Of a stretch of DNA of 20,127 bases, positions 3,849 through 20,127 are shown in pieces (positions within the stretch are counted from its first letter, which is position 1; the number at the start of each line of letters is the position of its first letter). The translations under genes and the position numbers were made by a program. This DNA comes from a virus: the IMG/VR virus record IMGVR_UViG_3300031621_000657, positions 1 to 20,127 of that record. One strand, written 5' to 3'. A model generated the notes under the pieces. It did no database searches. It worked only from the letters and a program-made list of their open reading frames with translations, and had not been told where the DNA came from.

Positions 3849-4303
3849 TGGGTTGGTATAGTGAAGTATCACGTGACGTAGGTAAAATTCCACAAGCTAT
3901 TCAATACTTTGAAGACGAACTGATTGAAGGTCGTTTAGATGTAAAGCTGAAAGGTAATGTTGAACGTGCCGCGGCAAATATGCCCGGCATTGTTGAACAA
4001 CGTTTTAATCAACTTCAAGAGATCGAAGCTATACTATACTACTTAAATATCGAGCTACGTAGATTGCGTAGCTCGTACTTTAAGAAATACTTAGAAAACT
4101 ACCAACGAGCTCTGTCAAGCCGTGACGTTGAAAAATACGTAGACGGTGAGGCAGACGTTGTTGACTATGAAAAGATCATTAATGAATTTGCATTGCTACG
4201 TAACAAATGGTTAGGACTGTTAAAAGGCCTCGATCAAAAGCAATGGCAGATTACTAACGTTGTTAAACTTAGAGTTGCTGGGATGGAAGATGCCAGTCTT
4301 TAA
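3848..4303 (+). CDS. uvsY: UvsY-like recombination mediator
   Basis: In T4, UvsY loads UvsX onto gp32-coated single-stranded DNA. This 151-residue, entirely helical-looking protein is close to the T4 length (137) and lies in the expected place after uvsX. Features I associate with UvsY of marine T4-like phages are the RSSYFKKYLENYQRALSSRD segment, the VVDYEKIINEFALLRNKW segment, and a C-terminal KLRVAGMED that parallels the end of T4 UvsY (IKHIQDMRAFEAG). It has no signal peptide or membrane segment. Its start overlaps the preceding stop (TAATG). A perfect 9-bp inverted repeat lies inside the coding sequence at 4051-4075. The 3' end overlaps the start of the FkbM gene by 14 bases, so the first sugar-island gene is coupled to the recombination block. 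Confidence 0.75.
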   Translation: MGWYSEVSRDVGKIPQAIQYFEDELIEGRLDVKLKGNVERAAANMPGIVEQRFNQLQEIEAILYYLNIELRRLRSSYFKKYLENYQRALSSRDVEKYVDGEADVVDYEKIINEFALLRNKWLGLLKGLDQKQWQITNVVKLRVAGMEDASL

Positions 4304-4970
4304 GAAAGATGACGATAGATTAATTTACGAATACATATCTGATACAGCACCTAAAGACATGTTTATGTTAGACGTAGGTGCTAGGACAGGCAAATGGTGT
4401 AAAACATTTGTAGATGCATTTCCAGAAGCAAAGTTTGCTTGCTTTGAAGCATTACCAGAACAATATGAAAAATGTAAAAATAGATTTAGAAAAAATGATA
4501 ATGTTACCGTACATAATTTTGTTATAAGTAATCACTGTAATGAAAAAATAACTTTTTATAAAGACACTGACAGACTAGGATGGAGTGGTTTACAAAAACA
4601 TTCTTATATGGAAAACTTTGAAGAGTTAGCATTACCTAGCAAGACGTTAGATAGTTTTTCTTTAGCACCTTATTTTGTAAAACTTGATGTAGAGGGTGCA
4701 GAATTATTGGCACTACAAGGCGCAATATTTACACTAAAGGAAGCAAAAGTAATTTACTTTGAATGTAATGAAATACACACTAAAGATTATGATTACGGCA
4801 CTGATCAAATATACAATCAATTAAAAAATAATAATTTTACAGTACATGACAAACATCTAAATGAACTAACATTAGATGAATTTGTGTATCGTACAGCTGA
4901 TGCTAGGCGTTACGAAAACCCAAAGGGGTATGAATCTAATTTTGTAGCACTGAGTAATGTACGTACATAA
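4290..4970 (+). CDS. FkbM-family SAM-dependent methyltransferase
   Basis: This 226-residue protein has the class I SAM-binding fold. Motif I is MLDVGARTGKW (residues 26-36), the acidic end of the second strand is FEALP (52-56), and the FkbM hallmark KLDVEGAELLALQG is at 131-144. FkbM enzymes O-methylate sugars and other secondary metabolites, and phages often carry them in glycan clusters. An upstream in-frame ATG at 4260 exists, but ATG 4290 is preferred: it gives the usual short lead into motif I, has GGATGGA just upstream, and reduces the overlap with uvsY to 14 bases. It is the first gene of the sugar island. The acceptor cannot be told; a methyl cap on a surface or virion glycan is inference. 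Confidence 0.85.
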   Translation: MPVFKKDDDRLIYEYISDTAPKDMFMLDVGARTGKWCKTFVDAFPEAKFACFEALPEQYEKCKNRFRKNDNVTVHNFVISNHCNEKITFYKDTDRLGWSGLQKHSYMENFEELALPSKTLDSFSLAPYFVKLDVEGAELLALQGAIFTLKEAKVIYFECNEIHTKDYDYGTDQIYNQLKNNNFTVHDKHLNELTLDEFVYRTADARRYENPKGYESNFVALSNVRT

Positions 4971-4973
4971 ATA
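4966..4973 (+). promoter_or_regulatory. Possible T4-type late promoter element
   Basis: CATAAATA differs by one base from the T4 late promoter -10 element TATAAATA and lies five bases before the ATG at 4979. That gene has no obvious Shine-Dalgarno sequence, so a transcript starting here would be nearly leaderless. The match is short and the region A/T-rich, so it may be chance. Confidence 0.2.
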
Positions 4974-4978
4974 TCTAT

Positions 4979-5758
4979 ATGGAACGTATTGTATTAGTCA
5001 CAGGTGGATTTGACCCACTACACTCAGGCCACATAGCCTACTTTAAAGAAGCAAAAAAACTTGGCACCAAATTAATTGTTGGTGTTAACTCAGACGAATG
5101 GCTCACACGCAAAAAGGGTAGACCTTTTATGTCGTTTGAAGAACGATGTGCTATTATAAAAGAACTATCTGTTGTTGATCAAGTCATAGGATTTAACGAC
5201 ACTGATGATAGTGCATGTCATGCGATTTTTCAAACCCTTAGCACACATAGCAGTGGAACAAAACTTATCTTTGCTAATGGCGGAGATAGAACAGACACCA
5301 CGACTCCTGAATATGCTACATACGGTGATTATCCACATGTAGATTTTGCGTTTGGTGTAGGTGGCGAAGACAAAAAGAATTCAAGTAGTTGGATACTAGA
5401 CGAATGGAAAAATCCAAAGACTATTAGAGAGTGGGGTTGGTATAGAGTATTAGACGATCAACCCGATAAAGGATACAAAGTAAAAGAACTTGTTATACTT
5501 CCAGGTAAGAGTTTAAGCGATCAGAGACACCATTATAGATCCGAATGTTGGTATGTTACTCAAGGGCAAGTGTCTATGGCTATTCAAATAGACGGTGACC
5601 CCCAACAAGGATTTGAGTTACCTGCACTTACAAATAGTTATAACATTGGATCAAATATTTGGCACAAGGCAATGAATAATCAAGATGTTCCAGCACATGT
5701 AATTGAGATACAGTTTGGCGAAAAATGTATTGAAGAAGATATAGAAAGAAGAAATTAA
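4979..5758 (+). CDS. Cytidylyltransferase-cupin fusion
   Basis: The protein has 259 residues in two parts. Residues 1-140 are a nucleotidyltransferase of the TagD/HldE-C type: GGFDPLHSGH (9-18) holds the HxGH motif, RPFMSFEER (48-56) is the second family block, and SSSWIL (135-140) matches the late phosphate-binding block. Such enzymes activate a sugar phosphate, glycerol phosphate or alditol phosphate to its CDP or ADP form. Residues about 150-255 look like a cupin barrel, with a paired His at 184-185, GQVSM at 196-200 and a late WHKA, as in the cupin part of type II mannose-6-phosphate isomerases. The fusion could couple activation with epimerisation or isomerisation of the same sugar. The true substrate is unknown. 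It lies eight bases after the FkbM gene, lacks a clear ribosome binding site, and its stop overlaps the next start (TAATG). Confidence 0.8.
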   Translation: MERIVLVTGGFDPLHSGHIAYFKEAKKLGTKLIVGVNSDEWLTRKKGRPFMSFEERCAIIKELSVVDQVIGFNDTDDSACHAIFQTLSTHSSGTKLIFANGGDRTDTTTPEYATYGDYPHVDFAFGVGGEDKKNSSSWILDEWKNPKTIREWGWYRVLDDQPDKGYKVKELVILPGKSLSDQRHHYRSECWYVTQGQVSMAIQIDGDPQQGFELPALTNSYNIGSNIWHKAMNNQDVPAHVIEIQFGEKCIEEDIERRN

Positions 5759-6429
5759 TGAAAGTATTCATAGGCTACGACCCAAGAGAAGATATTGCAT
5801 ACCAAGTATGTAAGCATAGTATACTAAAGCATCAACCCGATGCAGACGTGCGCCCATTAAAGCAAAGTGAACTACGAGACGGCGGATGGTATACTCGTCC
5901 TGCGGACAAACTTGCTAGTACAGAATTTACATTTACACGCTTCTTAATACCAGAACTTGCTAACTTCAATGGCTGGGCTGTGTTTATGGACTGTGATATG
6001 ATACTTACAACAGACATTAAAGAACTTTTTGATCAAGCAGATGACCGTTATGCTGTTATGTGTGTTAAGCACGACTATAAAGTTAAAGAAGAATTTAAAA
6101 TGGATGGACAAAAGCAAACTATATATCCACGCAAGAATTGGTCAAGTGTTGTATTATGGAACTGTGGACATCCTAGTAACAAAGTTGTTGATCAAGACAT
6201 GGTAAATGAAAAAGAACTTAACGGAGCATACTTCCATAGGTTTAACTGGCTTAACGATGAAGAGATTGGTGAATTGGATCATACATGGAACTATCTAGTA
6301 GGTGTATATGACGACATTGAAAAACCAAACATAATACACTACACAGAAGGTGGTCCGTGGTTTGAAAACTATCGTGATTGCGAATTTAACGAATTGTGGA
6401 AACAAGAACTTTATGATATGTTTAAGTAA
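5758..6429 (+). CDS. DxD glycosyltransferase, GT-A (GT8-like) fold
   Basis: The 223-residue protein opens with MKVFIGYDPREDIAY, the first strand and nucleotide-binding start typical of GT8-like enzymes. It has FMDCDMIL at residues 77-83, where D78-C-D80 is the metal-binding DxD, and ends with an IIHYTEGGPWF segment (H194) that supplies the late His ligand common in these families. It should transfer a sugar from a nucleotide-sugar donor in the cytoplasm. No membrane segment is visible. The start overlaps the upstream stop (TAATG), and its 3' end overlaps the next start by 17 bases, indicating one coupled transcript. Donor and acceptor are unknown. Confidence 0.82.
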   Translation: MKVFIGYDPREDIAYQVCKHSILKHQPDADVRPLKQSELRDGGWYTRPADKLASTEFTFTRFLIPELANFNGWAVFMDCDMILTTDIKELFDQADDRYAVMCVKHDYKVKEEFKMDGQKQTIYPRKNWSSVVLWNCGHPSNKVVDQDMVNEKELNGAYFHRFNWLNDEEIGELDHTWNYLVGVYDDIEKPNIIHYTEGGPWFENYRDCEFNELWKQELYDMFK

Positions 6430-7204
6430 AAACAAATCAGACGAATATGTAAACATGTACGCTAAAGGTGCAAGTTTACCAATACACGATTACGACTATG
6501 ATTATGAAAGTAAAAAGGCACCTATACTAATACGTAGCCTAGCTAAACGTAAAGTAATATGGAAATGTTTACAAGATAAAAGACCTTTCTATTATATGGA
6601 CAGCGGGTATATAGGTAATTATAAAAGTCCTATTAACCCTATGGGCTGGAAGTTGTTTCATCGTATAGTTAAAAATGGACTACAGCATGATGAAATAATC
6701 GAACGTCCTAGCGACAGATGGGAACAATTAGGAATAAAAATACAAGCGAGAAAGAAAACAGGTAGTAATATTTTATTGGTAATGCCCAGTGAAAAGCCTT
6801 GTAAGTATTACGGCATTAACGCAGAAGAATGGAAACAAAATACAATAGCGCAAATTAAAATGCATACAGATAGGCCTATTGTTATTAGAGAAAAACAACC
6901 AAGACATGTACGTTTACAAAATACAATATACCAAGACTTAGATAATGCATATGCACTAGTAACCTATCAAAGTATAGCGGCTGTAGAAAGTGTGTTGTAT
7001 GGCGTCCCGGCTTTTACACTTGCTCCAACAGCAGCTGACCCTGTTGCTAATAAGTACTTGTACAATCTAGAAAAACCAGAGCGGTACGATAAAGAGTACA
7101 TCTATAGTTGGGCATGCCACCTAGCATATGGACAGTTTCATATTAATGAAATGAAAAACGGCACAGCTCATAACTTTATAATGGAGGAACTTTATGGCAA
7201 TTAA
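6413..7204 (+). CDS. Capsule-synthesis-like GT-B protein, paralog A
   Basis: This is the first of four related proteins in the island (263 residues). The signature is HTDRPIVIR (151-159), then DNAYALVTYQS (177-187) and AVESVLYGVPAF (190-201), followed by a C-terminal W..LAYGQF...E...G block. In the other three copies the first block continues as RxHP; here it reads REKQP, so a His-Pro pair that may be catalytic or structural is missing, or this is a distinct subfamily. The pattern resembles the C-terminal half of capsule-synthesis (KpsC/KpsS-like) GT-B enzymes. The upstream ATG at 6350 lies deep in the preceding gene; ATG 6413 is preferred, overlapping it by 17 bases. It overlaps the next gene by 11 bases. 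Function is inferred from family resemblance only. Confidence 0.7.
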   Translation: MICLSKNKSDEYVNMYAKGASLPIHDYDYDYESKKAPILIRSLAKRKVIWKCLQDKRPFYYMDSGYIGNYKSPINPMGWKLFHRIVKNGLQHDEIIERPSDRWEQLGIKIQARKKTGSNILLVMPSEKPCKYYGINAEEWKQNTIAQIKMHTDRPIVIREKQPRHVRLQNTIYQDLDNAYALVTYQSIAAVESVLYGVPAFTLAPTAADPVANKYLYNLEKPERYDKEYIYSWACHLAYGQFHINEMKNGTAHNFIMEELYGN

Positions 7205-8111
7205 GTACGTAGTAGTTCATAGAACTGATAAAAATAATATCGGCGACATGGCCAGTAACCCCTTGCAATATTACTTACCAGCAAGTGATTATCAAGTAGT
7301 TGATATTTTAGATATCGGCGCATCAAAATACCCAAGTGACGTTCCACTAATAGCAGGCGGTGGCGGGCTAATAGGCAATCAGTTCTTAGGAAGTGACCTT
7401 TCGTATGCTCTTAACAACAGCGATCAAAACGCATTAATGACAATGTGGAAGGAAGCATGGTCTGTAGTAAATCATAATAACATAGATGTACGTGACGAAT
7501 TTTTACGTAAACTACAACCTATGATAAAAGAATATATTGATAAACTAGACAATACTACTGCCCCTCGAATTGTATGGGGTGCAGGACATAACGAAGATAC
7601 TAACAAACGTGTAAAGCGTCCAGAGTGGCCCGATTGGTTATCTAACTTTGACCTTATTGGTGTTAGAGATCACGGACAGCCTTATGAATGGGTTCCTTGT
7701 GCAAGTTGCTTAGACACAGCGTTTGATAAAAATTATAGAATTAAAAACGATGTAATTTGGTATGAACATAAAAAACAATTAATAAAATCTACACACTTTG
7801 GTAGCAAACCAGTTCCTAGATATATTAACAGCGGCGCAAACATGGAACAAACTATCGAGTTACTTGGTAGTGCAAATACAATTATTACTAACAGTTACCA
7901 CGGAGCATACTGGGGTACATTATTAGGTAAGAAAGTTATTGTTGCCGGTGCTTGGAGTAGTAAGTTTCATACGCTAAAGCATAGAGTTACATTTATTAAT
8001 CCGCAGGATAACTATGAATACTTACTTGACAATGTAGAAACACATCCTGAATCATTACAAGAATGTAGAGAAGCAAATAATACTCACTGGAATAAGATTA
8101 GATCGTTATGA
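7194..8111 (+). CDS. Polysaccharide pyruvyl transferase-like protein
   Basis: The 305-residue protein resembles the polysaccharide pyruvyl transferase family, which adds pyruvate ketals from phosphoenolpyruvate to exopolysaccharide sugars. Visible marks are the N-terminal NIGD (15-18), the glycine run IAGGGGLIG (53-61), IVWGAGHN near the middle, RDHGQ, and the family hallmark NSYHGAYWG (233-241). The start is secured by GGAGG eight bases upstream of ATG 7194, within the end of paralog A (11-base overlap). Its stop overlaps the next start as ATGA (8108-8111). A pyruvyl group would add negative charge to a glycan; some family members do other sugar chemistry, so the exact reaction is uncertain. 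Confidence 0.82.
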   Translation: MAIKYVVVHRTDKNNIGDMASNPLQYYLPASDYQVVDILDIGASKYPSDVPLIAGGGGLIGNQFLGSDLSYALNNSDQNALMTMWKEAWSVVNHNNIDVRDEFLRKLQPMIKEYIDKLDNTTAPRIVWGAGHNEDTNKRVKRPEWPDWLSNFDLIGVRDHGQPYEWVPCASCLDTAFDKNYRIKNDVIWYEHKKQLIKSTHFGSKPVPRYINSGANMEQTIELLGSANTIITNSYHGAYWGTLLGKKVIVAGAWSSKFHTLKHRVTFINPQDNYEYLLDNVETHPESLQECREANNTHWNKIRSL

Positions 8112-9022
8112 AAACTGTAGTAGGATATGCATCGGGTATACCAAACCCACATAAGAATCAGCACAAGGTTGATATTTTAAAAAGATATATCGACGGCGTA
8201 CAAAAGCACGGCGACAAGGGTATTTTACATTACGGTAACAATATTATCGACAGTGATGTAAATTTAATCCAAGGCTGGGTCCATGCAGGATCAGCAGCTA
8301 GTCCGCACTTAGTACTACGCAGACGTGCTCATGAAATTAATATTAATAAAGGTAAGCATTCATTTATTGCTGACAGTAATCTGTTTAACTATGCTGTAGG
8401 TAAAATGCATAACATGCAATATCTAAGATATAGTATGGACGGTGTATTTCCTACAACTGGTAATTATTTTACCAATACTGTTGACCCAAACAGATGGAAT
8501 CAGATACAAAAAGATCTTAACATTTCAATGAAAGATTGGAGACCTCAAGGTGTGCATGTATTAATATGTACGCAACGTAATGGTGGTTGGAGTATGGGCG
8601 GACTTAGCGTTGTGGACTGGTTAACTAAAACAATTAAAGAAGTTAGAAAACATACAGACAGACCAATTATAGTGCGCGGCCATCCAGGAGATAAACATGC
8701 TCCTAAATATCTTAAAAATAAAGACTGGCAAGTAAGTAAAGCACCGTCTATTATAGACGATCTTAGAAACGCACATTGTTCTATTACATATAATAGTAGT
8801 CCAAGTGTTGCAAGTGCTATAGAAGGCATACCAACATTTATTACAGACCCTACTCCACAAATTAGTCAAGCATATGCTGTTGCTAACACTGACTTATCTA
8901 ATGTTGAAAACCCGCTAATGTTTGAACGAACAGAATGGGTACAAAAATTAGCAATGAGCCATTGGAACTTTAACGAATTAAGTTCAGGCGATGCGTGGGC
9001 ACACATGAGAGATTACGTATGA
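8108..9022 (+). CDS. Capsule-synthesis-like GT-B protein, paralog B
   Basis: The protein (304 residues) carries the shared family signature: KHTDRPIIVRGHP (181-193), then RNAHCSITYNS (220-230) and ASAIEGIPTF (235-244), and a C-terminal W..KLA...WN..E..SG.AW.H block. Its middle, NRWNQIQKDLNISMKDW (128-144), matches paralog C (ERWNRFESMTGIKFKDW) closely, so B and C look like a tandem duplication. The RxHP motif followed by a small/Ser-rich strand resembles the C-terminal domain of capsule-synthesis GT-B proteins such as KpsC and KpsS. Both ends are ATGA overlaps (with the pyruvyl transferase gene and with paralog C). A glycosyltransferase role is inference. Confidence 0.72.
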   Translation: MKTVVGYASGIPNPHKNQHKVDILKRYIDGVQKHGDKGILHYGNNIIDSDVNLIQGWVHAGSAASPHLVLRRRAHEININKGKHSFIADSNLFNYAVGKMHNMQYLRYSMDGVFPTTGNYFTNTVDPNRWNQIQKDLNISMKDWRPQGVHVLICTQRNGGWSMGGLSVVDWLTKTIKEVRKHTDRPIIVRGHPGDKHAPKYLKNKDWQVSKAPSIIDDLRNAHCSITYNSSPSVASAIEGIPTFITDPTPQISQAYAVANTDLSNVENPLMFERTEWVQKLAMSHWNFNELSSGDAWAHMRDYV

Positions 9023-9969
9023 TAAAGATGATAGGCTTTCCGCCTCCGGCTTCTAAACCCTACTTCCATTGGGCAAAGGGTATGGAAAAAGTAGGTGATC
9101 AGTATATAGTAAGTGATGACTTAGATAGTAACATTGTGCGTGATGCTGATGCTTACTATCAAACTAATGAACTAAAGCCTAAGTTTTTACATGGCGGCAG
9201 AGCTGAATGGCATGGCAAGTACATGTTACATATTCAACAAGCAAACAAGCCTTACATTGTTAGTGAAAGCGAACCTTTTCGTGAATGTCCTGGATGGCTA
9301 AGATTTGGATGGAACAGTTATCGTTGGAACGATGCTAACTGGAATAACGAAAATGTAGGTCCTGAAAGATGGAATCGTTTTGAAAGTATGACTGGCATCA
9401 AATTTAAAGATTGGCACAGCCCGGGTGACTATATTCTTATTATGGGGCAGAAGGAAGGCGATAGTAGTCTAGTAAATGTATATAAAGCAGGCTATGCTAG
9501 TATATACGACTACATTGCAGAACAGTGTAAAATAATTAGACAATACACAGATCGCCCTATAGTTATACGACCACATCCTCGTAACTTAGATAGAGGTGCA
9601 AAGTTAGTAACAAAATTGTTAAAAGAAATGAAACTTGAAAATATAACAATGAGTCCTAACCTTACACGCGGCGGATCACAAGGCGGCGAAGGACTAGACA
9701 AAGATTTACAAAACGCATATTGCGTAGTTACATATAATAGTTTAAGTGGAGTTGAGGCCGTAGTAAGAGGAATACCGGTATTTGCTCTTGACGGCGGAAG
9801 CATGGCATATCCAGTAGCACATACAGACCTTTCAATTATTGAAAATTTAAATTACGATATCGACTTGCAAGAATGGAAAAATAAAATTGCTTACTCTATG
9901 TGGAATAAGCAGGATGTACAAACCGGTGAATGCTGGACACATTTAAAACAAGTATACTTTAAGGATTAA
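9019..9969 (+). CDS. Capsule-synthesis-like GT-B protein, paralog C
   Basis: The 316-residue protein has the signature YTDRPIVIRPHP (176-187), QNAYCVVTYNS (231-241) and VEAVVRGIPVF (245-255), then a C-terminal W..KIAYSMWN...G..W.H block. It differs from paralog B by a Gly-rich insertion near 217-226 (RGGSQGGEGL). The N-terminal half has several aromatic-rich runs (LRFGWNSYRW). The start is ATG 9019, overlapping the paralog B stop as ATGA; a longer GTG-started reading from 8995 would overlap B needlessly. Expected to be a cytoplasmic GT-B sugar transferase acting on the same glycan as its paralogs, but donor and acceptor are not deducible. Confidence 0.72.
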   Translation: MIKMIGFPPPASKPYFHWAKGMEKVGDQYIVSDDLDSNIVRDADAYYQTNELKPKFLHGGRAEWHGKYMLHIQQANKPYIVSESEPFRECPGWLRFGWNSYRWNDANWNNENVGPERWNRFESMTGIKFKDWHSPGDYILIMGQKEGDSSLVNVYKAGYASIYDYIAEQCKIIRQYTDRPIVIRPHPRNLDRGAKLVTKLLKEMKLENITMSPNLTRGGSQGGEGLDKDLQNAYCVVTYNSLSGVEAVVRGIPVFALDGGSMAYPVAHTDLSIIENLNYDIDLQEWKNKIAYSMWNKQDVQTGECWTHLKQVYFKD

Positions 9970-9971
9970 AA

Positions 9972-10655
9972 ATGCTAAGAACTATTTTTACTACACTAAC
10001 TAAACGGTGTGACAAATTTCAACATTACTTTCCGTTGTACGAAAAGCACTTTCAACAGTACGTAGGTAAAAGTCCTCGCATACTCGAAATAGGTGTACGC
10101 GGTGGCGGGAGTTTACAAATGTGGAAAAAGTATTTTGGTGAAGGAACATATGTACACGGAGTAGACATAGATGCAAAATGCCAAGCACACGAAGATACTG
10201 ACAACAATATACACGTAACTATTGGTGACGGCACTGATCCTATATTTTGGGAACAGCAATTTAAACAAAAAGGTATTAGAGATTTTGATATTATTATCGA
10301 TGACGGTAGTCACGAAAGTCCAGATCAAATTGTAACTTTAAAACTTACATACCAATTACTTAAAGATGTAGGAGTATACTGGTGTGAAGATACACATACT
10401 AGTTACTATCCAAATAGACTCGACGGCGGCTATGACAATCCAAAAAGTTTTACATCATATGTAAAAAATATAGTTGACGTACTAAGTCATCATCACACTA
10501 GTCATGCAATTGGATTTGGCCCAATAGACGGGCCGCATGTTCCTAAGAAGTTAATAAAGCCATTCGATCAAATACAAGGCGTTGCGTTTTACGATAGTGT
10601 TATTGTAATTGACAAAGGTCCAAGATTACATTTTAAACGGATAGTAAAAAAATGA
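9972..10655 (+). CDS. Class I SAM methyltransferase, CmcI/macrocin-type
   Basis: The 227-residue protein has motif I ILEIGVRGGGS (37-47), the acidic strand-2 end GVDID (63-67), and the metal-site-like IIIDDGSHESPDQ (107-119), followed by YWCEDTHTSY. This combination is typical of sugar O-methyltransferases of the macrocin and cephalosporin-hydroxylase-like (Methyltransf_24) group, which use a metal ion held by the DDGSH acidic residues. It lies three bases after paralog C with AAGGA as ribosome binding site, and its stop overlaps the HAD gene start (ATGA). It probably methylates a hydroxyl of a sugar in the island's glycan; the specific position is unknown. Confidence 0.83.
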   Translation: MLRTIFTTLTKRCDKFQHYFPLYEKHFQQYVGKSPRILEIGVRGGGSLQMWKKYFGEGTYVHGVDIDAKCQAHEDTDNNIHVTIGDGTDPIFWEQQFKQKGIRDFDIIIDDGSHESPDQIVTLKLTYQLLKDVGVYWCEDTHTSYYPNRLDGGYDNPKSFTSYVKNIVDVLSHHHTSHAIGFGPIDGPHVPKKLIKPFDQIQGVAFYDSVIVIDKGPRLHFKRIVKK

Positions 10656-11878
10656 ATTCGTGGGACGTCTTTGACACATTAATTGCTAGACTACATTACC
10701 ATCCTACTTCTATTTTTGACGAAGTAGGGAAGCGTATTGGCGATGCAGATTTTAAAGACAGGCGTGTTGCGGCATGGAAGCAAGTTAAGAAAACTTGTGT
10801 AGATAAAACATATAATGACATATATGATATACTTGTAGACGACGATCCGCAGATAGAACTTGATGTAGAGTTTGAGCATAACTTTCCTATATATGAAAAT
10901 ATAATGAAGGTTAAAGACGGAGATCTATTGATAAGTGACATGTACTTGCCTGCAGAATTTATAATGAAGATGCTACGCAATGTCGGATTAACAGCAGATG
11001 TTAAGATAGTTGTTACAGCTGACGGTAAGAAAAAAGGTTGGATATGGGAATCAATTAATGAAAACTATATCATAGATAACCACTACGGCGATAACGAAAA
11101 GAGTGATGTAAAGTCTGCACACGAACATGGTATCAATGGAGTACTATACACAGGTTATAAACTTAATAACATTGAAAACTTTGTTTACAAATACGATAGA
11201 CAGTTAGCATTATGGATGCGTTGTATTAGATTACAATGTCCATTCAACGACGAAAGACATATTAAATTTTGGAACGATCAAGCTAATATTAATATGCCTG
11301 TACTAGCACTTGCAACATTAGAGTTGCCTGATACTCCTATAGCGTTTACATATAGAGATTGTTTTAATTGGCAAAAGATCTACGAAACAATGACTAACAA
11401 GACAGGACTTAGGTTAGATGTATCACGTAAAATGTATCTTGGACCAAATGAGTACTTTACTAAGTACATGGAGTTTGTAAAAGAAGCTAATGCTACTATT
11501 GTAGATTTACAGGGCAAAGGCCGAAGCATACAAAGTTTTTATAACGGTGCGCCACCTAACACAGTTTACATAGGCGGTAGACCCCCACCGTATGTTAAAC
11601 GTTTAGTCGACTATCAAACTAAAAGCATGGAGAAACATAACTGTTTTGAAGAAGGTCCAATTATAGATTACAACGAACACGGGCCTGTTAGAGGAGTTAA
11701 TGATCATCCTGCCGATGTTGCAGACATACATAAAAAAGCAGGCCAAGCGGCTGTTAGATATCTTAATAAGTTTAAATTTAAAAATAATTTATTATTATTA
11801 ACCGAGCTAGTAAAGATGTACGATACACAAAACTTTACTAATAAAAATGTTAAATGGGCAAAGTATAATAATGAATGA
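10652..11878 (+). CDS. HAD-superfamily hydrolase-like protein
   Basis: The N-terminal 165 residues carry the HAD motifs in order: WDVFDTLIAR (4-13) with nucleophile D5 and D8/T9, LLISDMYLP (92-100) with Ser95, the lysines of ADGKKKG (123-129), and HYGDNEKSD (144-152) with the acidic metal ligands. The DVFDTL plus SDMYLP combination is that of the predicted hydrolases often found in polysaccharide clusters (COG5610-like). The following 240 residues have no recognised domain, though the phrase TIVDLQGKGRSIQSFY suggests a second nucleotide-binding or sugar-related fold. Total 408 residues, longer than a simple HAD phosphatase. It starts in an ATGA overlap and ends with TGA overlapping the kinase-like gene by eight bases. 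A sugar-phosphate phosphatase role is plausible but unproven. Confidence 0.78.
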   Translation: MNSWDVFDTLIARLHYHPTSIFDEVGKRIGDADFKDRRVAAWKQVKKTCVDKTYNDIYDILVDDDPQIELDVEFEHNFPIYENIMKVKDGDLLISDMYLPAEFIMKMLRNVGLTADVKIVVTADGKKKGWIWESINENYIIDNHYGDNEKSDVKSAHEHGINGVLYTGYKLNNIENFVYKYDRQLALWMRCIRLQCPFNDERHIKFWNDQANINMPVLALATLELPDTPIAFTYRDCFNWQKIYETMTNKTGLRLDVSRKMYLGPNEYFTKYMEFVKEANATIVDLQGKGRSIQSFYNGAPPNTVYIGGRPPPYVKRLVDYQTKSMEKHNCFEEGPIIDYNEHGPVRGVNDHPADVADIHKKAGQAAVRYLNKFKFKNNLLLLTELVKMYDTQNFTNKNVKWAKYNNE

Positions 11879-12374
11879 AGTTACAAGACGTAGACTCACT
11901 AGAGAATTTTGGAACGATGAAAAGGAATGTTATCGTAGACTAGAATCTTGCCAGCAAGTTCCGACTCTTATTAGATCTAATATGACTGACTTAACTATAA
12001 CAACATCGTATGCAGGCACAAGTTTGTTTATACTTACAGCGGTTCAAAAAAAGAAAGACATTGTAATTAACAATCCGTTAGAACAAATTAAAACTTTTAT
12101 TGATGCTTGTAAAGAGCAAGGTATTACCCATTTAGATTGTCATCCCGGTAATGTATTATTACTAGACGGCAAACTTTCAATAATTGATTTTGAAAAAGTT
12201 GCATTAGACGGTACTACCCGAAATACAAAAATGAAAAAAAAGTATGATAAATTTATGTCCAAGGGCGGGTGGGATTGGATACTAAATAGATATACAAAAT
12301 ACTTTGATAACTTCGATAACTATATTTGGTTTAACGAAGAAGTCTTACAAAAAGGAATAAGGAAATATGGATAA
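11871..12374 (+). CDS. Small kinase-fold (APH/LPS-kinase-like) protein
   Basis: This 167-residue protein has the catalytic half of a eukaryotic-like kinase fold. HLDCHPGNVLL (87-97) matches the catalytic loop HxDxxxxN, with D89 and N94, and LSIIDFEKV (102-110) matches the metal-binding DFE/DFG element at D106. The N terminus has a helix like kinase alpha-C (EKECYRRLESC, 17-27), but the glycine loop and a clear ATP-binding lysine strand are missing, so it is either a minimal kinase or a truncated one. Related folds phosphorylate LPS core heptose or Kdo, choline or aminoglycosides; a glycan kinase fits the neighbours. ATG 11871 is chosen over ATG 11847 because it reduces the overlap with the HAD gene to eight bases. 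Confidence 0.68.
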   Translation: MNEVTRRRLTREFWNDEKECYRRLESCQQVPTLIRSNMTDLTITTSYAGTSLFILTAVQKKKDIVINNPLEQIKTFIDACKEQGITHLDCHPGNVLLLDGKLSIIDFEKVALDGTTRNTKMKKKYDKFMSKGGWDWILNRYTKYFDNFDNYIWFNEEVLQKGIRKYG

Positions 12375-12492
12375 TAGAGAGCACCAGGAACAAAAGTTAA
12401 AGTTCCAAGAAAAGACGATTAAAGATCAAGAGAAACAAATAGCCGAACAGGCTAAGCGTATTGCAGAACTTTACAAAGGGAAGAAGAAGTAG
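12367..12492 (+). CDS. 41-residue charged coiled-coil microprotein
   Basis: A short frame from ATG 12367 to TAG 12490-12492 encodes 41 residues, nearly all Glu, Gln, Lys and helix formers (for example KDQEKQIAEQAKRIAELYK), ending in a Lys-rich tail. The spacing of Phe13, Ile18, Ile25, Ile32 and Leu35 fits an amphipathic heptad helix. AAGGA lies at a good distance upstream of the ATG, the frame overlaps the kinase-like gene by eight bases, and it ends one base before the next ATG, so the gene fits the translational chain exactly. No homologous family was recognised. It may be a coiled-coil partner for a neighbouring enzyme, which is inference. Confidence 0.65.
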   Translation: MDNREHQEQKLKFQEKTIKDQEKQIAEQAKRIAELYKGKKK

Positions 12493-12493
12493 C

Positions 12494-13036
12494 ATGGCTA
12501 AGCATTATAGTAAATTTACAAACAACTACACAAAGATTTATTACAAAAATAAACTTATATCAGACGGCTCACGTGATCCACTAGAAAGAATAAATGCTAT
12601 GCCTGTAGACTTTAAAGATAAAACTTTATTAGACTTAGGGTGTAATTGCGGTGGCACAATGTTTGCTGTTGCAGATCAAATTAAACAAGGATGGGGTTGT
12701 GATATTAATCCTGATGCAATTAGTTTTGCAAACGACCTAGCAAAGGAAAATAATATTAATAATGTTTCTTTTAGTGTTGCTGATCTTAACAACTGGCAAG
12801 AAGCTAACCTTCCTAAAACAGATATACTATTTGCCTTAGCAATTGCAAAATGGGTTCCTACTTGGAAAGAAATAATTGCACACCTTGATCCTAAAGTATG
12901 TGTGTTTGAAGCACATGGTAAAGGCAGTATGGTGCCTGATCAAGTTGCTTGGCTAACTAATCATTTTAAAAGTGTAGAAGTAATACTCGACGGGTATGAA
13001 GCAGGCAAACGTAGACTTTACCTTTGTGTCCAATAA
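12494..13036 (+). CDS. Class I SAM methyltransferase
   Basis: The 180-residue protein has motif I LLDLGCNCGG (45-54), the acidic strand-2 end GCDINPDAI (68-76, D70), and a VADLNNW segment that would contact the adenine. It is a compact Rossmann methyltransferase without an obvious extra domain, close to ubiquinone/trans-aconitate-type enzymes. The motif ILFALAIAKW replaces the usual catalytic strand-4 sequence. ATG 12494 is preferred to the upstream frame start at 12461 because AAAGGGAAGAAG precedes it and it follows the microprotein stop directly. Its 3' end overlaps the opposite-strand glycosyltransferase by 19 bases. The substrate is unknown, probably a sugar given the neighbours. Confidence 0.82.
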   Translation: MAKHYSKFTNNYTKIYYKNKLISDGSRDPLERINAMPVDFKDKTLLDLGCNCGGTMFAVADQIKQGWGCDINPDAISFANDLAKENNINNVSFSVADLNNWQEANLPKTDILFALAIAKWVPTWKEIIAHLDPKVCVFEAHGKGSMVPDQVAWLTNHFKSVEVILDGYEAGKRRLYLCVQ

Positions 13037-13860
13037 TCTTCTTTTCGATTAACCATTATATCTGAACTTTTACTTTTACCAGTGTTTTTACGATCACCTT
13101 TCATGTGATCCATCCACTTACCTAATTCAGTATTAATTAACGGATGTCCGCCCCCGCCCGACTTTGCTTCGCGCAAATACATTGAGGCACTATAGTCATG
13201 ACTAGGAAACTCTTTATACTTGTTAAGTATTTCACCAAAGATATAACTGTCATGCCACTCAGGTAATTTAAACATACCATTGTCGGCATCTTCGTACATG
13301 CGTTCAAACTCTTTAAGGAACTCGTGACACACAGGGTGATTAAGATTAAGGCCGTAAAAGCCGCACTCGGGCCACGTCTGTGATCCTTTACCTCTACCTA
13401 CATATGTAATGTAGTCGTGTTGAGGTAGTAAGTTATTAAATTCTTTGTGCTTCCACGGACTATGAATAAATGTATCAGCGTCCATCCATACTACCCAATC
13501 GTTGTGCTTTTCACAAGCATCAAATACAGCATATACTTTATTAGCAAAGCGTATAGCGTCCCATTTAAATCCTTTGTTCCAATCCTTACGTCCGTGTCTA
13601 GCAGAGTGATTTGCAATATCGCCGTTTGCATGCGGAACATCCTTCCAACGTTCTTTAAATGCATTTAGTTTTGGTAATTCTTTAATTGCATCTAGTATTG
13701 TAATTTGATCTGGATTTGGATTCTTTGGGCTACAGTTTTCTGCATACACGACTAATTTAACTTTGCTCTCGACATTTTCGGCAAAGCTATCTATAAATCG
13801 TTGTCCGTATAGACTAAGTCCAGGTTGGTGAAACGTTGTTACCACAGTTATTGATGACAT
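13018..13860 (-). CDS. DxD glycosyltransferase-like protein on minus strand
   Basis: This is the only minus-strand gene seen. The 280-residue protein starts SSITVVTTFHQPG, a first strand and turn like GT-A glycosyltransferases, and has DWVVWMDADTFIH (121-133) where D127-A-D129 is the metal-binding DxD. The segment ECGFYGLNLNHP and the later EWHDSYIFG are consistent with acceptor-side and catalytic elements of nucleotide-sugar transferases. The start codon is preceded by AAAGGA on its strand. It runs convergently into the methyltransferase gene (19-base overlap) and diverges from paralog D across 42 bases. The inversion suggests separate acquisition or separate timing of expression. Donor and acceptor unknown. 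Confidence 0.8.
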   Translation of the reverse strand: MSSITVVTTFHQPGLSLYGQRFIDSFAENVESKVKLVVYAENCSPKNPNPDQITILDAIKELPKLNAFKERWKDVPHANGDIANHSARHGRKDWNKGFKWDAIRFANKVYAVFDACEKHNDWVVWMDADTFIHSPWKHKEFNNLLPQHDYITYVGRGKGSQTWPECGFYGLNLNHPVCHEFLKEFERMYEDADNGMFKLPEWHDSYIFGEILNKYKEFPSHDYSASMYLREAKSGGGGHPLINTELGKWMDHMKGDRKNTGKSKSSDIMVNRKEDYWTQR

Positions 13861-13902
13861 ATTAATCCTTTGAGTAAATATACTATATGGAGTATTTAAC
13901 CA
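13861..13902. promoter_or_regulatory. Divergent intergenic control region
   Basis: These 42 bases separate two divergent starts, so they must hold or overlap a promoter for at least one side. On the minus strand AAAGGA gives a ribosome binding site; on the plus strand GGAG (13889-13892) serves paralog D. TATACT (13879-13884) could be a -10 box with a poor -35 at ATGACA (13854-13859, 19-base spacing). Both strands carry six-of-eight matches to the T4 late element TATAAATA. No single promoter can be assigned with confidence. Confidence 0.4.
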
Positions 13903-14775
13903 ATGATTTTCTGTCTGTACACTGATTATGGCGCACTAAACAGTCAACCTGTATTTCATGCATTCGCTAAGAGTGTAGTTGATGCAGGACACACTGTAAT
14001 ATACAATGAGCCTTACCGGCTCATGGATCACTACAACAACTATGACGTTGCTGTAATATGGAGTGTATTATGGAATGGACGAATGGCACAAAACAAGACA
14101 GTATGGGAGCAAAATCGCTTACATAACAGACCAGTAATTGTTTTAGAAGTAGGTGCTCTTAATAGAGGCACTATGTGGAAGGTAGGACTCAACGGCATTA
14201 ATAGAGATGCATACTTTGCACCAAAGAAGAACAATAACGAACGTGCTAACATGTTAGGGTTAAAATTAAAACCATGGACGTATAACGAAGACGGCCCTAT
14301 TGTAATTTGTTTACAACATAATAAAAGTCAACAGTGGGCAACTATGCCGCCACACGATAAATGGTTAGACAACACACTATCAACTATACGAAAGCGTACT
14401 GATAGACTTATAATAATTAGGCCGCACCCACGTTGTCCAATCCCACTATTTTCTGACAAATATAAAAACGTAGATGTTCAATACCCAGTAAAGAATAACA
14501 CCACATATGACGATTATGAATTTGATATGTCAGATGCATATGCTGTTGTAAGTTGGAGTTCTAATCCTGCTATACAAGCAATACTACAAGGAGTTCCTGT
14601 TTTTGTCGGACCAAGTAGTTTGGCTTACGATGTAGCACAACACAGCGTTAAAGAAATTAACAATCCAATAAGACCTGACAGGACGCAATGGCTAAATGAC
14701 CTTGCACATGTGGAATACAGTACACATGAAATTGCCGCAGGCTACCCATTAAAACACTTGACATTACAACTTTAA
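13903..14775 (+). CDS. Capsule-synthesis-like GT-B protein, paralog D
   Basis: The 290-residue protein is the fourth copy of the island family, with KRTDRLIIIRPHPR (164-177), SDAYAVVSWSS (210-220) and IQAILQGVPVF (224-234), then a C-terminal W.NDLA...YS..E...G block. Its N-terminal half (MIFCLYTDYGALNSQPVF) looks like a GT-B first strand and differs from A, B and C. It retains the RxHP motif. It is set apart from the other three by five genes and lies beyond the inverted glycosyltransferase. GGAG stands ten bases upstream of ATG 13903. Its 3' end contains the -35 box of the next promoter, so it closes the island. A sugar transferase role is inferred from resemblance to capsule-synthesis proteins. 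Confidence 0.72.
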   Translation: MIFCLYTDYGALNSQPVFHAFAKSVVDAGHTVIYNEPYRLMDHYNNYDVAVIWSVLWNGRMAQNKTVWEQNRLHNRPVIVLEVGALNRGTMWKVGLNGINRDAYFAPKKNNNERANMLGLKLKPWTYNEDGPIVICLQHNKSQQWATMPPHDKWLDNTLSTIRKRTDRLIIIRPHPRCPIPLFSDKYKNVDVQYPVKNNTTYDDYEFDMSDAYAVVSWSSNPAIQAILQGVPVFVGPSSLAYDVAQHSVKEINNPIRPDRTQWLNDLAHVEYSTHEIAAGYPLKHLTLQL

Positions 14776-14786
14776 ACTGTTATACT
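14758..14786 (+). promoter_or_regulatory. Sigma70-type promoter of the uvsW operon
   Basis: TTGACA (14758-14763) and TATACT (14781-14786) are separated by exactly 17 bases. The -35 box lies within the last codons of paralog D. The twelve bases 14751-14762 are identical to 1321-1332 at the gene 32 promoter, suggesting both belong to one expression class. Transcription would start near 14793, giving a leader of about 24 bases. Confidence 0.82.
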
Positions 14787-14802
14787 AGTTACATATTACA
14801 GC

Positions 14803-14819: not shown

Positions 14820-16055
14820 CAACATACAATTGAAGATTGTTTGGAAATTGTAGCAGGCCTTAGAGCCAATATCGATTTCAAACTTGACAGATTAGACGGG
14901 TCAATTACCCTTAGCATTGCTAAACAAGTCTTTAGGGGAACATCTCTTAGTGACAAACAATACAAACTAATGAAGGAAAAATTAGTAAAGTATAGCGATC
15001 AATTTAAAGAACTAGATATTGACATCCACGATGCTGTGACTCGAACAAGTATGCCGTTGCGGTCTATTGATAGGACTAAGTTTATTAAGTTTGTTGATTT
15101 AGAAGACGTGGTAGCAGCAGACTCAGTAACTACATTTGGTAGAAGAAAAATAGAATTATCTAATCTACCCTGGATTGCTATACGCTTTCCTTTTTCTAAA
15201 AAACTAATTTGCAAACTAGATAACCTTCCAAAGTCAGCTACTACGTATGTACACAAAAAAGGAACACATACCCATTACTATGCACTTACTGAAAAAGTTG
15301 CATACGAATGTATAGAACAATTTGGAGTTAATAACTTTGAAATTGATTCCGAAATATTTGAGTTACATAAAGAAATAAACACTTGGAAGAAGGAAGATTA
15401 TGTTCCGGGAATTTATAATAACAAAATTAAAAACTTGCCACAACATGTAATCGATGAAATGATAGGAGAAATGGGCGAGCCCTGCATAGAAAATATGCAC
15501 TTGTATCATGATAAGAAGTTTATGTACGGACTTGAAGAAGTTAGTGGTGGCGCATATCATTGTAGTATATTATCAAAAACTATTGCAGAACGAAGCAAAA
15601 ATTATGTTCACATAGATTCAAAAGAACACCCGTTGCAAGAATTATTTAAATCAATGATAGAATTAAAACGCTATCCTATTAATATTTTAGTCGAAGAAGA
15701 GTCAGCATTTGATATACTAACACAGACACATCAAATTGTTCGTAATTATATTCCTAATGATCAAATAAGTGTATTGTACAGAATGGATAATCAAACTGAC
15801 ACTGAAGGATATAACAAGTACATTAAAATACATGAACTTAATACTCCGGTTGACAAAGACACAAAAATAGTGTATACTCTAAAGAGTAAATTAAATAAAC
15901 CCTTATTAAAGAGTGACTGTAAACCTATTACTAGTTTCTCTTTTTCTAGTAACAGATATCCAATGAGTACGGCTGCCGTACTTGAACATATGGATTTGTT
16001 AATTGAATATTGCGAAGATGCACCTCTTTTTAGAGACTGGAGAAATAAATTTTAA
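14817..16055 (+). CDS. Protein of unknown function upstream of uvsW
   Basis: The 412-residue protein was not recognised. Residues 25-65 contain SITLSIAKQVF and LSDKQYKLMKEKL, a helix pair with an LSxKQ phrase that I associate with DNA-processing phage proteins. Residues 118-170 (from PWIAIRFPFSKKLICKL to ALTEKVAYECIEQF) resemble a small HARP-like alpha/beta domain as found before SNF2-type helicase cores; this is a weak impression. The C-terminal 150 residues have alternating strands and helices (YPINILVEEESAFDIL, TKIVYTLKSKLNKPLL) that could be a helicase-like domain without Walker motifs. It is first in the operon, with its own promoter, and its stop overlaps the uvsW start (TAATG), which points to a partner role in replication or recombination. 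Function unknown. Confidence 0.85.
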   Translation: MQHTIEDCLEIVAGLRANIDFKLDRLDGSITLSIAKQVFRGTSLSDKQYKLMKEKLVKYSDQFKELDIDIHDAVTRTSMPLRSIDRTKFIKFVDLEDVVAADSVTTFGRRKIELSNLPWIAIRFPFSKKLICKLDNLPKSATTYVHKKGTHTHYYALTEKVAYECIEQFGVNNFEIDSEIFELHKEINTWKKEDYVPGIYNNKIKNLPQHVIDEMIGEMGEPCIENMHLYHDKKFMYGLEEVSGGAYHCSILSKTIAERSKNYVHIDSKEHPLQELFKSMIELKRYPINILVEEESAFDILTQTHQIVRNYIPNDQISVLYRMDNQTDTEGYNKYIKIHELNTPVDKDTKIVYTLKSKLNKPLLKSDCKPITSFSFSSNRYPMSTAAVLEHMDLLIEYCEDAPLFRDWRNKF

Positions 16056-17518
16056 TGGCGTCATGTAGACTAATAATAGAAGATGAAGTAAATATCAAGA
16101 TAGAAGGTCTTGATGTAGATATCAGACGCAAACTTGCAAATGCTCTTAAATTTGAAGTGCCTTACGCAAAGTATATGCCACAATATAAACTTGGACGATG
16201 GGATGGCAAGGTTGCTTTCTTTGGCATAGGCGGCACAGGTTATGTTAATCACCTTGATGTTGTTGCTGATGTACTTGCAAAAAATAATGTTGAGATAGCT
16301 GACATTGACGATAAACGCAATCCTATACAATTAAACTTTACACCGGTTACAGAACGTTACTGGGCAGACCAAGGTGTATGCTGGCCTGAAGGACATCCTG
16401 TAGCAGGTACAGAAATTATTCTACGTGACTATCAAGTAACAGCTATTAATAACTTTTTAAGTCATCCACAGAGCTTGCAACAGATTGCTACTGGTGCAGG
16501 CAAAACAATTACGACAGCAACCCTGTCACATATAGCTGAGCCATACGGTCGGTCGATTGTGATTGTTCCTAACAAATCGTTAGTAGAACAAACAGAAGAA
16601 GACTATATTAACTGTGGGCTCGACGTAGGGGTGTACTTCGGAGATCGAAAACAGTTAGGTAAGACTCACACTATTTGCACTTGGCAGAGTTTAAATATAC
16701 TCGACAAGAAGCACAAGGATGGCACGGCTGTTTTAAGCCTAGCAGAATTCCTAGACGGTGTGAGCACTATAATCGTCGATGAAGTACACCAAGCGAAAGC
16801 TGAAGTTCTTAAGAACTTGCTCACTCGCAACCTACGTAACGCTCCAATACGTTGGGGACTAACTGGCACAGTGCCTAAAGAGAAGTTTGAGTTTGAAAGT
16901 ATACACGCAAGTCTTGGACCTGTAATTGGAAACATTACAGCAAAAGAATTGCAAGACAAATGTGTGCTATCACAATGTCATGTTAACGTTTGTCAATTAA
17001 TTGACACTGTTGCACATAGAGATTACCAAGGCGAACTTAAATATCTAACATCAAACGAAGCGAGACTACAGTACATTGCTAAGATGATGAATAAGATTTC
17101 GGAGACAGGCAACACACTAATACTAGTAGATAGAATTAGCGCAGGCAAATTATTAGAAGAACTAATACCTAACAGCACGTTTGTAAGCGGCGCTGTAAAA
17201 GTTAAAGACAGGAAAGAAACTTACGATACAATTAAGGAAGGCACTAATGAAGTTATTATTGCAACTTATGGTGTAGCGGCTGTTGGACTTAACATTCCTA
17301 GAATCTTTAATCTTGTCCTTATCGAACCTGGCAAGAGTTTTGTTAGGGTAATACAGAGTATAGGCAGAGGCGTAAGAAAGGCAAAGGACAAAGACTTCGT
17401 GCAAATTTGGGATATCACTTCAACGTGCAAATTTGCAAAGAGACATTTAACACAACGTAAAAAATTCTATAAGGAAGCACAATATCCTTTCACTATAGAA
17501 AAAATTGATTGGAACTAA
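16055..17518 (+). CDS. uvsW: UvsW-like superfamily 2 DNA helicase
   Basis: UvsW of T4 is an SF2 helicase that remodels branched recombination intermediates and stalled forks and ends origin-type initiation by unwinding R-loops. This 487-residue protein is near the T4 length (about 500). Motifs in order: an N-terminal substrate-binding domain (1-100) with KYMPQYKLGRWDGKV, RDYQ (124-127), Walker A ATGAGKT (145-151), DEVH (242-245), LTGT (269-272), and motif VI QSIGRGVRK (434-442). It is cytoplasmic. The start overlaps the upstream stop as TAATG, so it is coupled to the unknown 412-residue protein, and both would be transcribed from the promoter at 14758. Confidence in the family is high; the name uvsW is based on architecture and on nearby gp32, uvsX and uvsY. 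Confidence 0.92.
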   Translation: MASCRLIIEDEVNIKIEGLDVDIRRKLANALKFEVPYAKYMPQYKLGRWDGKVAFFGIGGTGYVNHLDVVADVLAKNNVEIADIDDKRNPIQLNFTPVTERYWADQGVCWPEGHPVAGTEIILRDYQVTAINNFLSHPQSLQQIATGAGKTITTATLSHIAEPYGRSIVIVPNKSLVEQTEEDYINCGLDVGVYFGDRKQLGKTHTICTWQSLNILDKKHKDGTAVLSLAEFLDGVSTIIVDEVHQAKAEVLKNLLTRNLRNAPIRWGLTGTVPKEKFEFESIHASLGPVIGNITAKELQDKCVLSQCHVNVCQLIDTVAHRDYQGELKYLTSNEARLQYIAKMMNKISETGNTLILVDRISAGKLLEELIPNSTFVSGAVKVKDRKETYDTIKEGTNEVIIATYGVAAVGLNIPRIFNLVLIEPGKSFVRVIQSIGRGVRKAKDKDFVQIWDITSTCKFAKRHLTQRKKFYKEAQYPFTIEKIDWN

Positions 17519-19189: not shown

Positions 19190-19779
19190 TACATCACAAA
19201 TCGTGTGTAAGTAAAATGACACTAATACAATTAGAACATAGTAGTAAGCTTCTAGCAGATTTAGTATCAGATAGATTTGACGAATTTTACAAAACTTTTC
19301 CTAAGGGGTATATGGGGTTTGCAGAAGGTAGTCGTAGTACAGAGTTGTATGAAGCATACAATGTGTTCCTATGTCATTACCCAGGGTTTACTGATCTATA
19401 TAAACAAATTGTAACTACAATTAAATCCAAAATACCAAACTGGCATGAATACGCAATAGCAGGTTGGGTGAATGTTTATAACAAAGGCGGCTACTTAAAC
19501 TGGCATAAACATGGTCCAGAAAATCAAGTACATGACGGAAGGTGGCATGGGTATGTTTGCGTAAACGCAGAACCTAGTCAAACAATGTATAGAGATAAAG
19601 ATGAAGTTATTAAAACAATTGACAACCAAGATGGTTATATAACACTCAGTCCAGCAGGTCTATATCATCGTGTTAGCGAGTGGGAGAAGGATACGCCTCG
19701 TATAACAATAGCGTTTGATATTATTAAACGTGAACAAATAGATCCTTTATTATTAAACAGATGGATACCAATAATATGA
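19186..19779 (+). CDS. 2-oxoglutarate/Fe(II) oxygenase-like protein
   Basis: The 197-residue protein has a double-stranded beta-helix signature. WVNVYNKGGYLNWHKHG (94-110) gives H107 and H109 as the first metal ligands, GLYHRVSEW (158-166) gives the distal H161, and PRITIAFDI (171-179) gives R172 for 2-oxoglutarate. This order is typical of phage 2OG-Fe(II) oxygenases; the usual HxD/E has become HxH, so metal binding may be modified. Such enzymes hydroxylate proteins, nucleic acids or small molecules. ATG 19186 overlaps the upstream stop (ATGA) but has its AGGA only two to three bases away, so ATG 19216 is a possible alternative. The stop overlaps the kdsA start. Confidence 0.78.
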   Translation: MIHHKSCVSKMTLIQLEHSSKLLADLVSDRFDEFYKTFPKGYMGFAEGSRSTELYEAYNVFLCHYPGFTDLYKQIVTTIKSKIPNWHEYAIAGWVNVYNKGGYLNWHKHGPENQVHDGRWHGYVCVNAEPSQTMYRDKDEVIKTIDNQDGYITLSPAGLYHRVSEWEKDTPRITIAFDIIKREQIDPLLLNRWIPII

Positions 19780-20127
19780 GAATTATAGCAGGACCATGTC
19801 AGCACGAATCATTACCACAAAGTTTAGAGATCGCTCGAGAGTGCAAACGTGTATGTGATAAGTATGGTATTGAATATTATTTTAAAGCAAGTTTTGACAA
19901 AGCTAATCGTAGTAGTATGCAAGGTGTACGTGGGCAAGGTATGTCAGCAACACTAACAGACTTCTTGGCACTAAAAGTAGAACTAGGTGTAAAGACACTT
20001 ACTGATGTACATGACTATGTACAAGTTGCTCGTATTGAACGTGAGTTTAGAGATGCTGTTGATGTTTATCAGATCCCTGCATTCTTGTGTAGACAGACAG
20101 ACCTAATAAAGGCGGTCTGCGCCACAG
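19776..20127 (+). CDS. kdsA: Kdo-8-phosphate synthase, 3' partial
   Basis: The visible 117 residues match 3-deoxy-D-manno-octulosonate-8-phosphate synthase, which joins phosphoenolpyruvate and arabinose-5-phosphate to make Kdo-8-phosphate. Family marks in order: RIIAGPCQHES (2-12), the signature KASFDKANRSS (37-47), RGQGM, TLTDVHD, and IPAFLCRQTDL with the end of the strand that precedes the active site. These blocks have the same order and spacing as in bacterial KdsA. It starts directly at the IAGPC block, about ten residues shorter than typical KdsA at the N terminus. The ATG overlaps the preceding stop (ATGA). The gene is cut by the window end; full length would be about 270-280 residues. 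In bacteria the product feeds LPS core and group 2 capsule linkers. Confidence 0.92.
   Translation, partial: MRIIAGPCQHESLPQSLEIARECKRVCDKYGIEYYFKASFDKANRSSMQGVRGQGMSATLTDFLALKVELGVKTLTDVHDYVQVARIEREFRDAVDVYQIPAFLCRQTDLIKAVCAT

Follow-up and report, generated by a model that had tools for sequence, protein, structure and literature searches.

The retaining transferases of 3-deoxy-D-manno-oct-2-ulosonic acid (Kdo) work by a double displacement that has been described as unique so far among glycosyltransferases (GTs) and whose origin has been called unclear, and they carry two motifs: QXXXD supplies the nucleophile (Asp) and a ligand for the Kdo carboxylate (Gln), and (K/R)XHP is the binding motif for cytidine monophosphate (CMP) (PMC10148158, PMC12887879). 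In KpsC, the dual beta-Kdo transferase of the Escherichia coli group 2 capsule (GT107), the nucleophile has been proven to be Asp160, no activity is detectable in the D160A variant, and the N-terminal domain alone determines acceptor and linkage (PMC10148158). The related KpsS1 of Acinetobacter (GT118) is described as a pseudaminate transferase, so that the fold can take another ulosonic acid (PMC12887879). Here we describe four paralogous genes, A to D, in the viral sequence IMGVR_UViG_3300031621_000657 (IMG/VR), of which positions 1 to 20,127 were analysed (the window, 20,127 nucleotides in full). They belong to an old phage family with the Kdo-transferase fold, encoded near Kdo-activating genes; two of its clades keep the nucleophile and others have invariantly replaced it, and this distribution of the nucleophile is new.

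Gene clusters for modification of lipopolysaccharide (LPS) or capsule have been described for cyanophages, jumbo phages and pelagimyophages, and they likewise combine glycosyltransferases with sugar-nucleotide enzymes, but a family of Kdo-transferase type is not named in the passages of these papers that were searched (PMC7824862, PMC7029224). Searches of the open-access literature did not find phage KpsC-like or Kdo transferases either.

Paralogy, predicted fold and catalytic motifs

All four open reading frames are intact on the plus strand at the positions given by the initial annotation, namely A (6413..7204, 263 aa), B (8108..9022, 304 aa), C (9019..9969, 316 aa) and D (13903..14775, 290 aa). 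The six paralog pairs scored Z values of 17.7 to 52.9 against 300 shuffles, so their homology greatly exceeds chance, and a search with C against its own record retrieved the other three, with E values of 3.7e-32 for B, 2.3e-13 for D and 8e-10 for A. The shared blocks on which the annotation had based its claim of four paralogs (TDRPI.IR, AY.VVTY.S, GIPVF and W..LA....E...G) proved to be true aligned columns, and its observation that B and C are adjacent and most alike was borne out by the top pair score (52.9) and a 4-nt overlap of the two genes (ATGA). The strong divergence that it described for the N-terminal halves was seen between the groups, with 10-22% identity in the N-terminal part and 25-32% in the C-terminal part, but not inside them, where the two parts are about equally conserved (39-54% and 45-52%). 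By analogy with the role of the N-terminal domain of KpsC, it is plausible that each paralog would use a separate acceptor.

To place the four copies, a set of 602 unique homologs, all 180 aa or longer, was collected from fetched loci and a careful tree was built from 61 representatives. Five clades were recovered, each on one side of a branch, with support of 100/97 for A, 100/100 for B, 95/88 for C, 100/100 for D and 100/100 for E. Clade E lies outside the window (L042:4959-5987, L031:4010-5002, L044:8037-9068 and others); with QLPGDASLR and R.HP it is a second QXXXD-bearing enzyme type.

Models of C and A were obtained with AlphaFold at mean predicted local distance difference test values of 95.5 and 93.5, respectively. 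In Foldseek, ranks 1 to 18 for C were all KrkA (GT140, from the E. coli K13 capsule), KpsC and WbbB, with KrkA leading, and all 15 matches of A at E<=0.001 were to the same three proteins in spite of the loss of both motifs. In VIA the best match of C was KpsC (8fux, Z 14.4, root-mean-square deviation 4.1, 250 aligned residues), followed by KrkA at 12.4 and the best other structure at 10.9, and the best match of A was the N-terminal domain of WbbB (GT99, Z 12.1), followed by KpsC at 11.7, KrkA at 9.8 and the best other at 9.3. A and C are thus predicted to have the double Rossmann, GT-B-like fold of the retaining beta-Kdo transferases. This agrees with the initial assignment to a capsule-like GT-B family, as does the Pfam Capsule_synth model (PF05159), which C passes with 20.6 bits at a gathering cut-off of 20; A, B and D had no match to it, and 5 of 65 family members reached E<=0.01. 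No match was found in PHROGs for A to D, nor for any of the 65 members at E<=0.001. Among PDB sequences, phmmer with C and profiles of clades C and E gave no relatives, with chance matches above E 0.4, and the tie to the Kdo transferases therefore runs through the fold and pairwise profiles only.

The motif register was set by profile comparison with kpsC and kpsS of E. coli Nissle as yardsticks. The QKEGD of C was aligned to QVEDD of the KpsC C-module, QLAGD of clade E to the QTFND in the KpsC N-module whose Asp is residue 160, and a mixed C/B profile to QVYND of KpsS. In this register C carries the full signature of a retaining beta-Kdo transferase (QKEGD at 9448-9462, RPHP at 9568-9579), B carries QRNGG (8573-8587) and RGHP (8675-8686), D carries QHNKS (14314-14328) and RPHP (14419-14430), and A has lost both motifs, reading PSEKP (6785-6799) and REKQP (6887-6901) at these sites. 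The same states hold throughout the clades: the nucleophile column is occupied by Asp in clades C and E, by Gly in clade B and by Ser in clade D, each at 100%; the Gln is present in 100% and the His of RXHP in 99-100% of clades B to E (in the RPHP of clade C, Arg and His 100%, Pro 87%); and clade A has Pro in 98% at the Gln position and Lys or Arg at the His position. The ratio of nonsynonymous to synonymous substitution (dN/dS) between close orthologs was 0.05-0.11 for all four, demonstrating strong purifying selection, so the motif losses are not decay.

Judged by this alignment, C alone among the window copies holds the nucleophilic Asp, and B and D, which lack the Asp of QXXXD, are not classed as retaining Kdo transferases. 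Loss of the nucleophile in three of the four copies is a larger difference between them than the choice of acceptor, and it was missed by the annotation. KpsC has both motifs in register with C, but the phage genes are single-module, B, D and A are without the nucleophile, and the sequence similarity is marginal. WbbB has a QXXXD nucleophile as in C and E, but its sequence similarity is negligible and it puts terminal beta-Kdo on O-antigen from within a multidomain protein. KrkA has QTLND and HP, with the base glutamate in a YE motif, and itself shows negligible sequence similarity to other members of the fold; it keeps the nucleophile, whereas phage B and D invariantly replace it.

Kdo-activating genes and the proposed mechanism

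Gene neighbourhoods were counted on contigs selected by family patterns (162 contig groups), and these counts are not unbiased frequencies. KdsA, the 3-deoxy-8-phosphooctulonate synthase, was present in 26 of 65 searched records of relatives, and wherever a contig group has both KdsA and D (36 of 36), KdsA follows downstream on the strand of D at a distance of 3.7-6.9 kb; in the window it is truncated by the end (19761..20126, plus strand). A KdsB-type gene adjoins KdsA in 22 of 25 cases. NCBIfam confirmed a KdsB-like neighbour, and one neighbouring cytidylyltransferase scored 121.7 bits with the kdsB model versus 27.3 bits with the pseudaminate model. The bacterial kps locus of E. coli Nissle likewise has a KdsB-type gene beside kpsC. 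A Kdo transferase of WaaA type was detected on none of the 26 KdsA-bearing contigs, which is weak evidence of absence as the contigs are fragmentary, and on 7 KdsA-bearing contigs neither C nor E was detected; KdsA in company of neither C/E nor a WaaA-type transferase fits a use of CMP-Kdo by B or D too.

We consider it rather probable that these genes form a phage cassette for a glycan built from CMP-Kdo, in which C is of the retaining Kdo-transferase type, B and D are CMP-sugar transferases of another mechanism, and A has been recast. C would most likely be a retaining transferase of beta-Kdo, or of a similar ulosonic acid, acting by double displacement: Asp148 of QKEGD would attack CMP-Kdo while Gln144 would hold the carboxylate and His186 of RPHP the CMP phosphate. 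The acceptor may be activated by Glu83 of the N-terminal domain, a candidate base conserved in 93% of clade C and matched by its position after a strand; an acid in this place (Asp or Glu) is found in 93-100% of all five clades. B and D probably still bind CMP-sugar because the Gln and RXHP are kept, but the invariant Gly or Ser at the nucleophile position makes an Asp adduct impossible, and the inactivity of KpsC D160A implies that the two should not share that chemistry. The likeliest alternative for B and D is that the acceptor, once activated by the conserved acid of the N-terminal domain, reacts by direct displacement, which would yield the opposite anomer, alpha-Kdo. A, in which both motifs are gone and which is yet strongly conserved, probably takes another donor. 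Together with a GT8 protein, a pyruvyl transferase and methyltransferases of the cassette, the paralogs may assemble or modify a glycan, whose most likely place is the surface of the infected cell. The Kdo-synthesis genes known from marine viruses would have a likely user in this cassette, and its old paralogs, standing in one cluster with two clades that have and three that do not have the nucleophile, are a natural test set for gain and loss of mechanism.

Several points weigh against this reading. The profile E-values are pairwise and modest (8.9e-5 for C, 0.017 for clade E and 4e-6 for the C/B profile with KpsS), the fold of B and D is carried over by sequence homology from the models of A and C, and the N-domain acid is matched by strand position, MAFFT putting Glu83 of C in another column. 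KdsA was not found in 39 of the 65 searched records, including some long ones; its link with C or E is weak to moderate (19/34 vs 7/30, Fisher p 0.011, not corrected for kinship) and is not significant among contigs with long downstream flanks. Both kdsA and kdsB have already been reported as viral genes in general (PMC10653327), and they need not serve these enzymes. The target of the glycan is a guess.

In an alternative reading the paralogs share the fold but use other donors, namely other CMP-sugars such as pseudaminic-type ulosonic acids or, for A, a nucleoside diphosphate sugar, with KdsA and KdsB serving a general tinkering with lipopolysaccharide. The different ulosonic acid used by KpsS1, a relative of KpsC, and the presence of (K/R)XHP in sialyltransferases as well (PMC12887879) are consistent with it, as are the 39 searched records in which KdsA is missing. 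We nevertheless hold it to be unlikely, considering the fixed place of KdsA-KdsB 3' of D in the 36 contig groups and the fit of the neighbouring cytidylyltransferase to the kdsB model far above the pseudaminate one.

In a second alternative, which we consider still a little less likely, B, D and A are non-catalytic: as pseudoenzymes they would bind CMP-sugar or acceptor and serve C, or a transferase of the host, as scaffold or specificity subunit. The invariant loss of the nucleophile in B and D, the loss of the CMP motif in A and the lack of detectable activity in KpsC D160A (PMC10148158) would all be expected of it, but the clade set ABD occurs without C or E in 70 of the 162 contig groups, so that a catalytic partner from the family is usually not there, and the residues invariant within each clade and dN/dS of about 0.1 or less also argue against it.

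Age, gene order and distribution of the clades

Clades A, B, C and D are each present in many aquatic phages, and since each window copy falls inside its own widespread clade the copies are old. The approximately unbiased (AU) test rejected a single clade made up of the four window copies (p 2.7e-6) and also rejected window B and window C as a private pair, while clades B and C together were not rejected and are sisters with support of 94/91. The local expansion in this phage that the initial annotation had proposed is therefore contradicted by the tree; of its tandem duplication of B and C, an old duplication stands, which according to the tree happened before the divergence of these phages, and a duplication private to the window does not. 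Among the contig groups the order A-B-D was found in 55, C-A-B-D in 12 and A-B-C-D in 8; B is followed by C in 17, with a gap of less than 300 nt in 16, and C stands more often 5' of A than directly after B. A-B-D is thus the usual core, and C and E are optional. A recent tandem expansion in this single phage, for which the adjacency, the 4-nt overlap and the top pair score of B and C might speak, is hardly credible: every copy has its own clade containing many orthologs, the AU test rejected private clades, and C is found more often ahead of A than after B.

In viral contigs the family patterns matched at least 599 stretches, and in a genome collection of 84,980 species they matched 4 loci from three metagenome-assembled genomes (MAGs); the patterns were built from phage sequences, and distant bacterial members could escape them. 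Three of these loci had been candidates for bacterial or archaeal homologs and were rejected as misbinned phage DNA, judged by their replication-gene neighbours: L329, of which L330 is a near-copy, has the gp32, UvsX and UvsW typical of this kind of phage, and both are filed under a Neomarinimicrobiota MAG; L332, with the corresponding UvsW, is filed under a Euryarchaeota MAG. The fourth, L331, is a stretch without a replication gene. PF05159 matches occur in 4 of 149 genomes of the phylum of the Neomarinimicrobiota MAG, and QXXXD beside (K/R)XHP was not found in these 4. As to isolates, Pelagibacter phage Mosig has 2 members and Caulobacter giant phages have 1 or 2; both Mosig members are without either motif, and Mosig is thus uninformative for C. 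A member with QVPQD and RPHP was also seen in a small phage (MW202713, Manatee Spring, L096:4759-5610), on a stretch mostly without annotated genes. A bolder version of the CMP-Kdo reading, in which the genes form a phage-restricted new family at the level of CAZy, one ancestral Kdo-transferase fold having split into retaining C and E, nucleophile-less and possibly inverting B and D and a donor-switched A, so that Kdo in both alpha and beta linkage could enter a single glycan from CMP-Kdo of the phage's own making, is put forward tentatively, as we regard it as possible but doubtful.

Phage type and neighbouring genes

The window, part of the genome of a T4-like phage, has genes for gp32 (1444-2463), RecA/UvsX (2705-3616) and UvsW (16055-17518). 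Its UvsX and UvsW are nearest to their counterparts in jumbo phages such as Sinorhizobium phage Phosso, Atu_ph07, PA5oct and Vibrio phage 2.275.O, and a megablast search of 4001-14800 against phage records gave no match.

On the plus strand, A is preceded by an FkbM-type methyltransferase (4284..4970), a nucleotidyltransferase similar to the C-terminal part of RfaE/HldE fused to a mannose-6-phosphate isomerase-type cupin (4979..5758), and a GT8-type glycosyltransferase (5758..6429), the last two being conserved neighbours; the fusion gene adjoins the GT8 gene in L329 too. Between A and B lies a polysaccharide pyruvyl transferase family protein (7194..8111, plus strand), which has no equivalent between A and B in L329 and looks like a module swapped within the cassette. 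C is followed on the same strand by a methyltransferase (Methyltransf_24, 9972..10655), a protein with at most weak similarity to haloacid dehalogenase-like proteins (10652..11878), and a protein resembling aminoglycoside phosphotransferases and protein kinases, with weak similarity to LPS Kdo kinases (11847..12374). Export genes were not recognised among the assigned cassette proteins of the window. Just one cassette gene is on the minus strand (13018..13860); it encodes a conserved protein between B and D without a Pfam match, and its ortholog is on the cassette strand in L329 (62% identity) and on the opposite strand in L332, so that the orientation of this gene flips among relatives.

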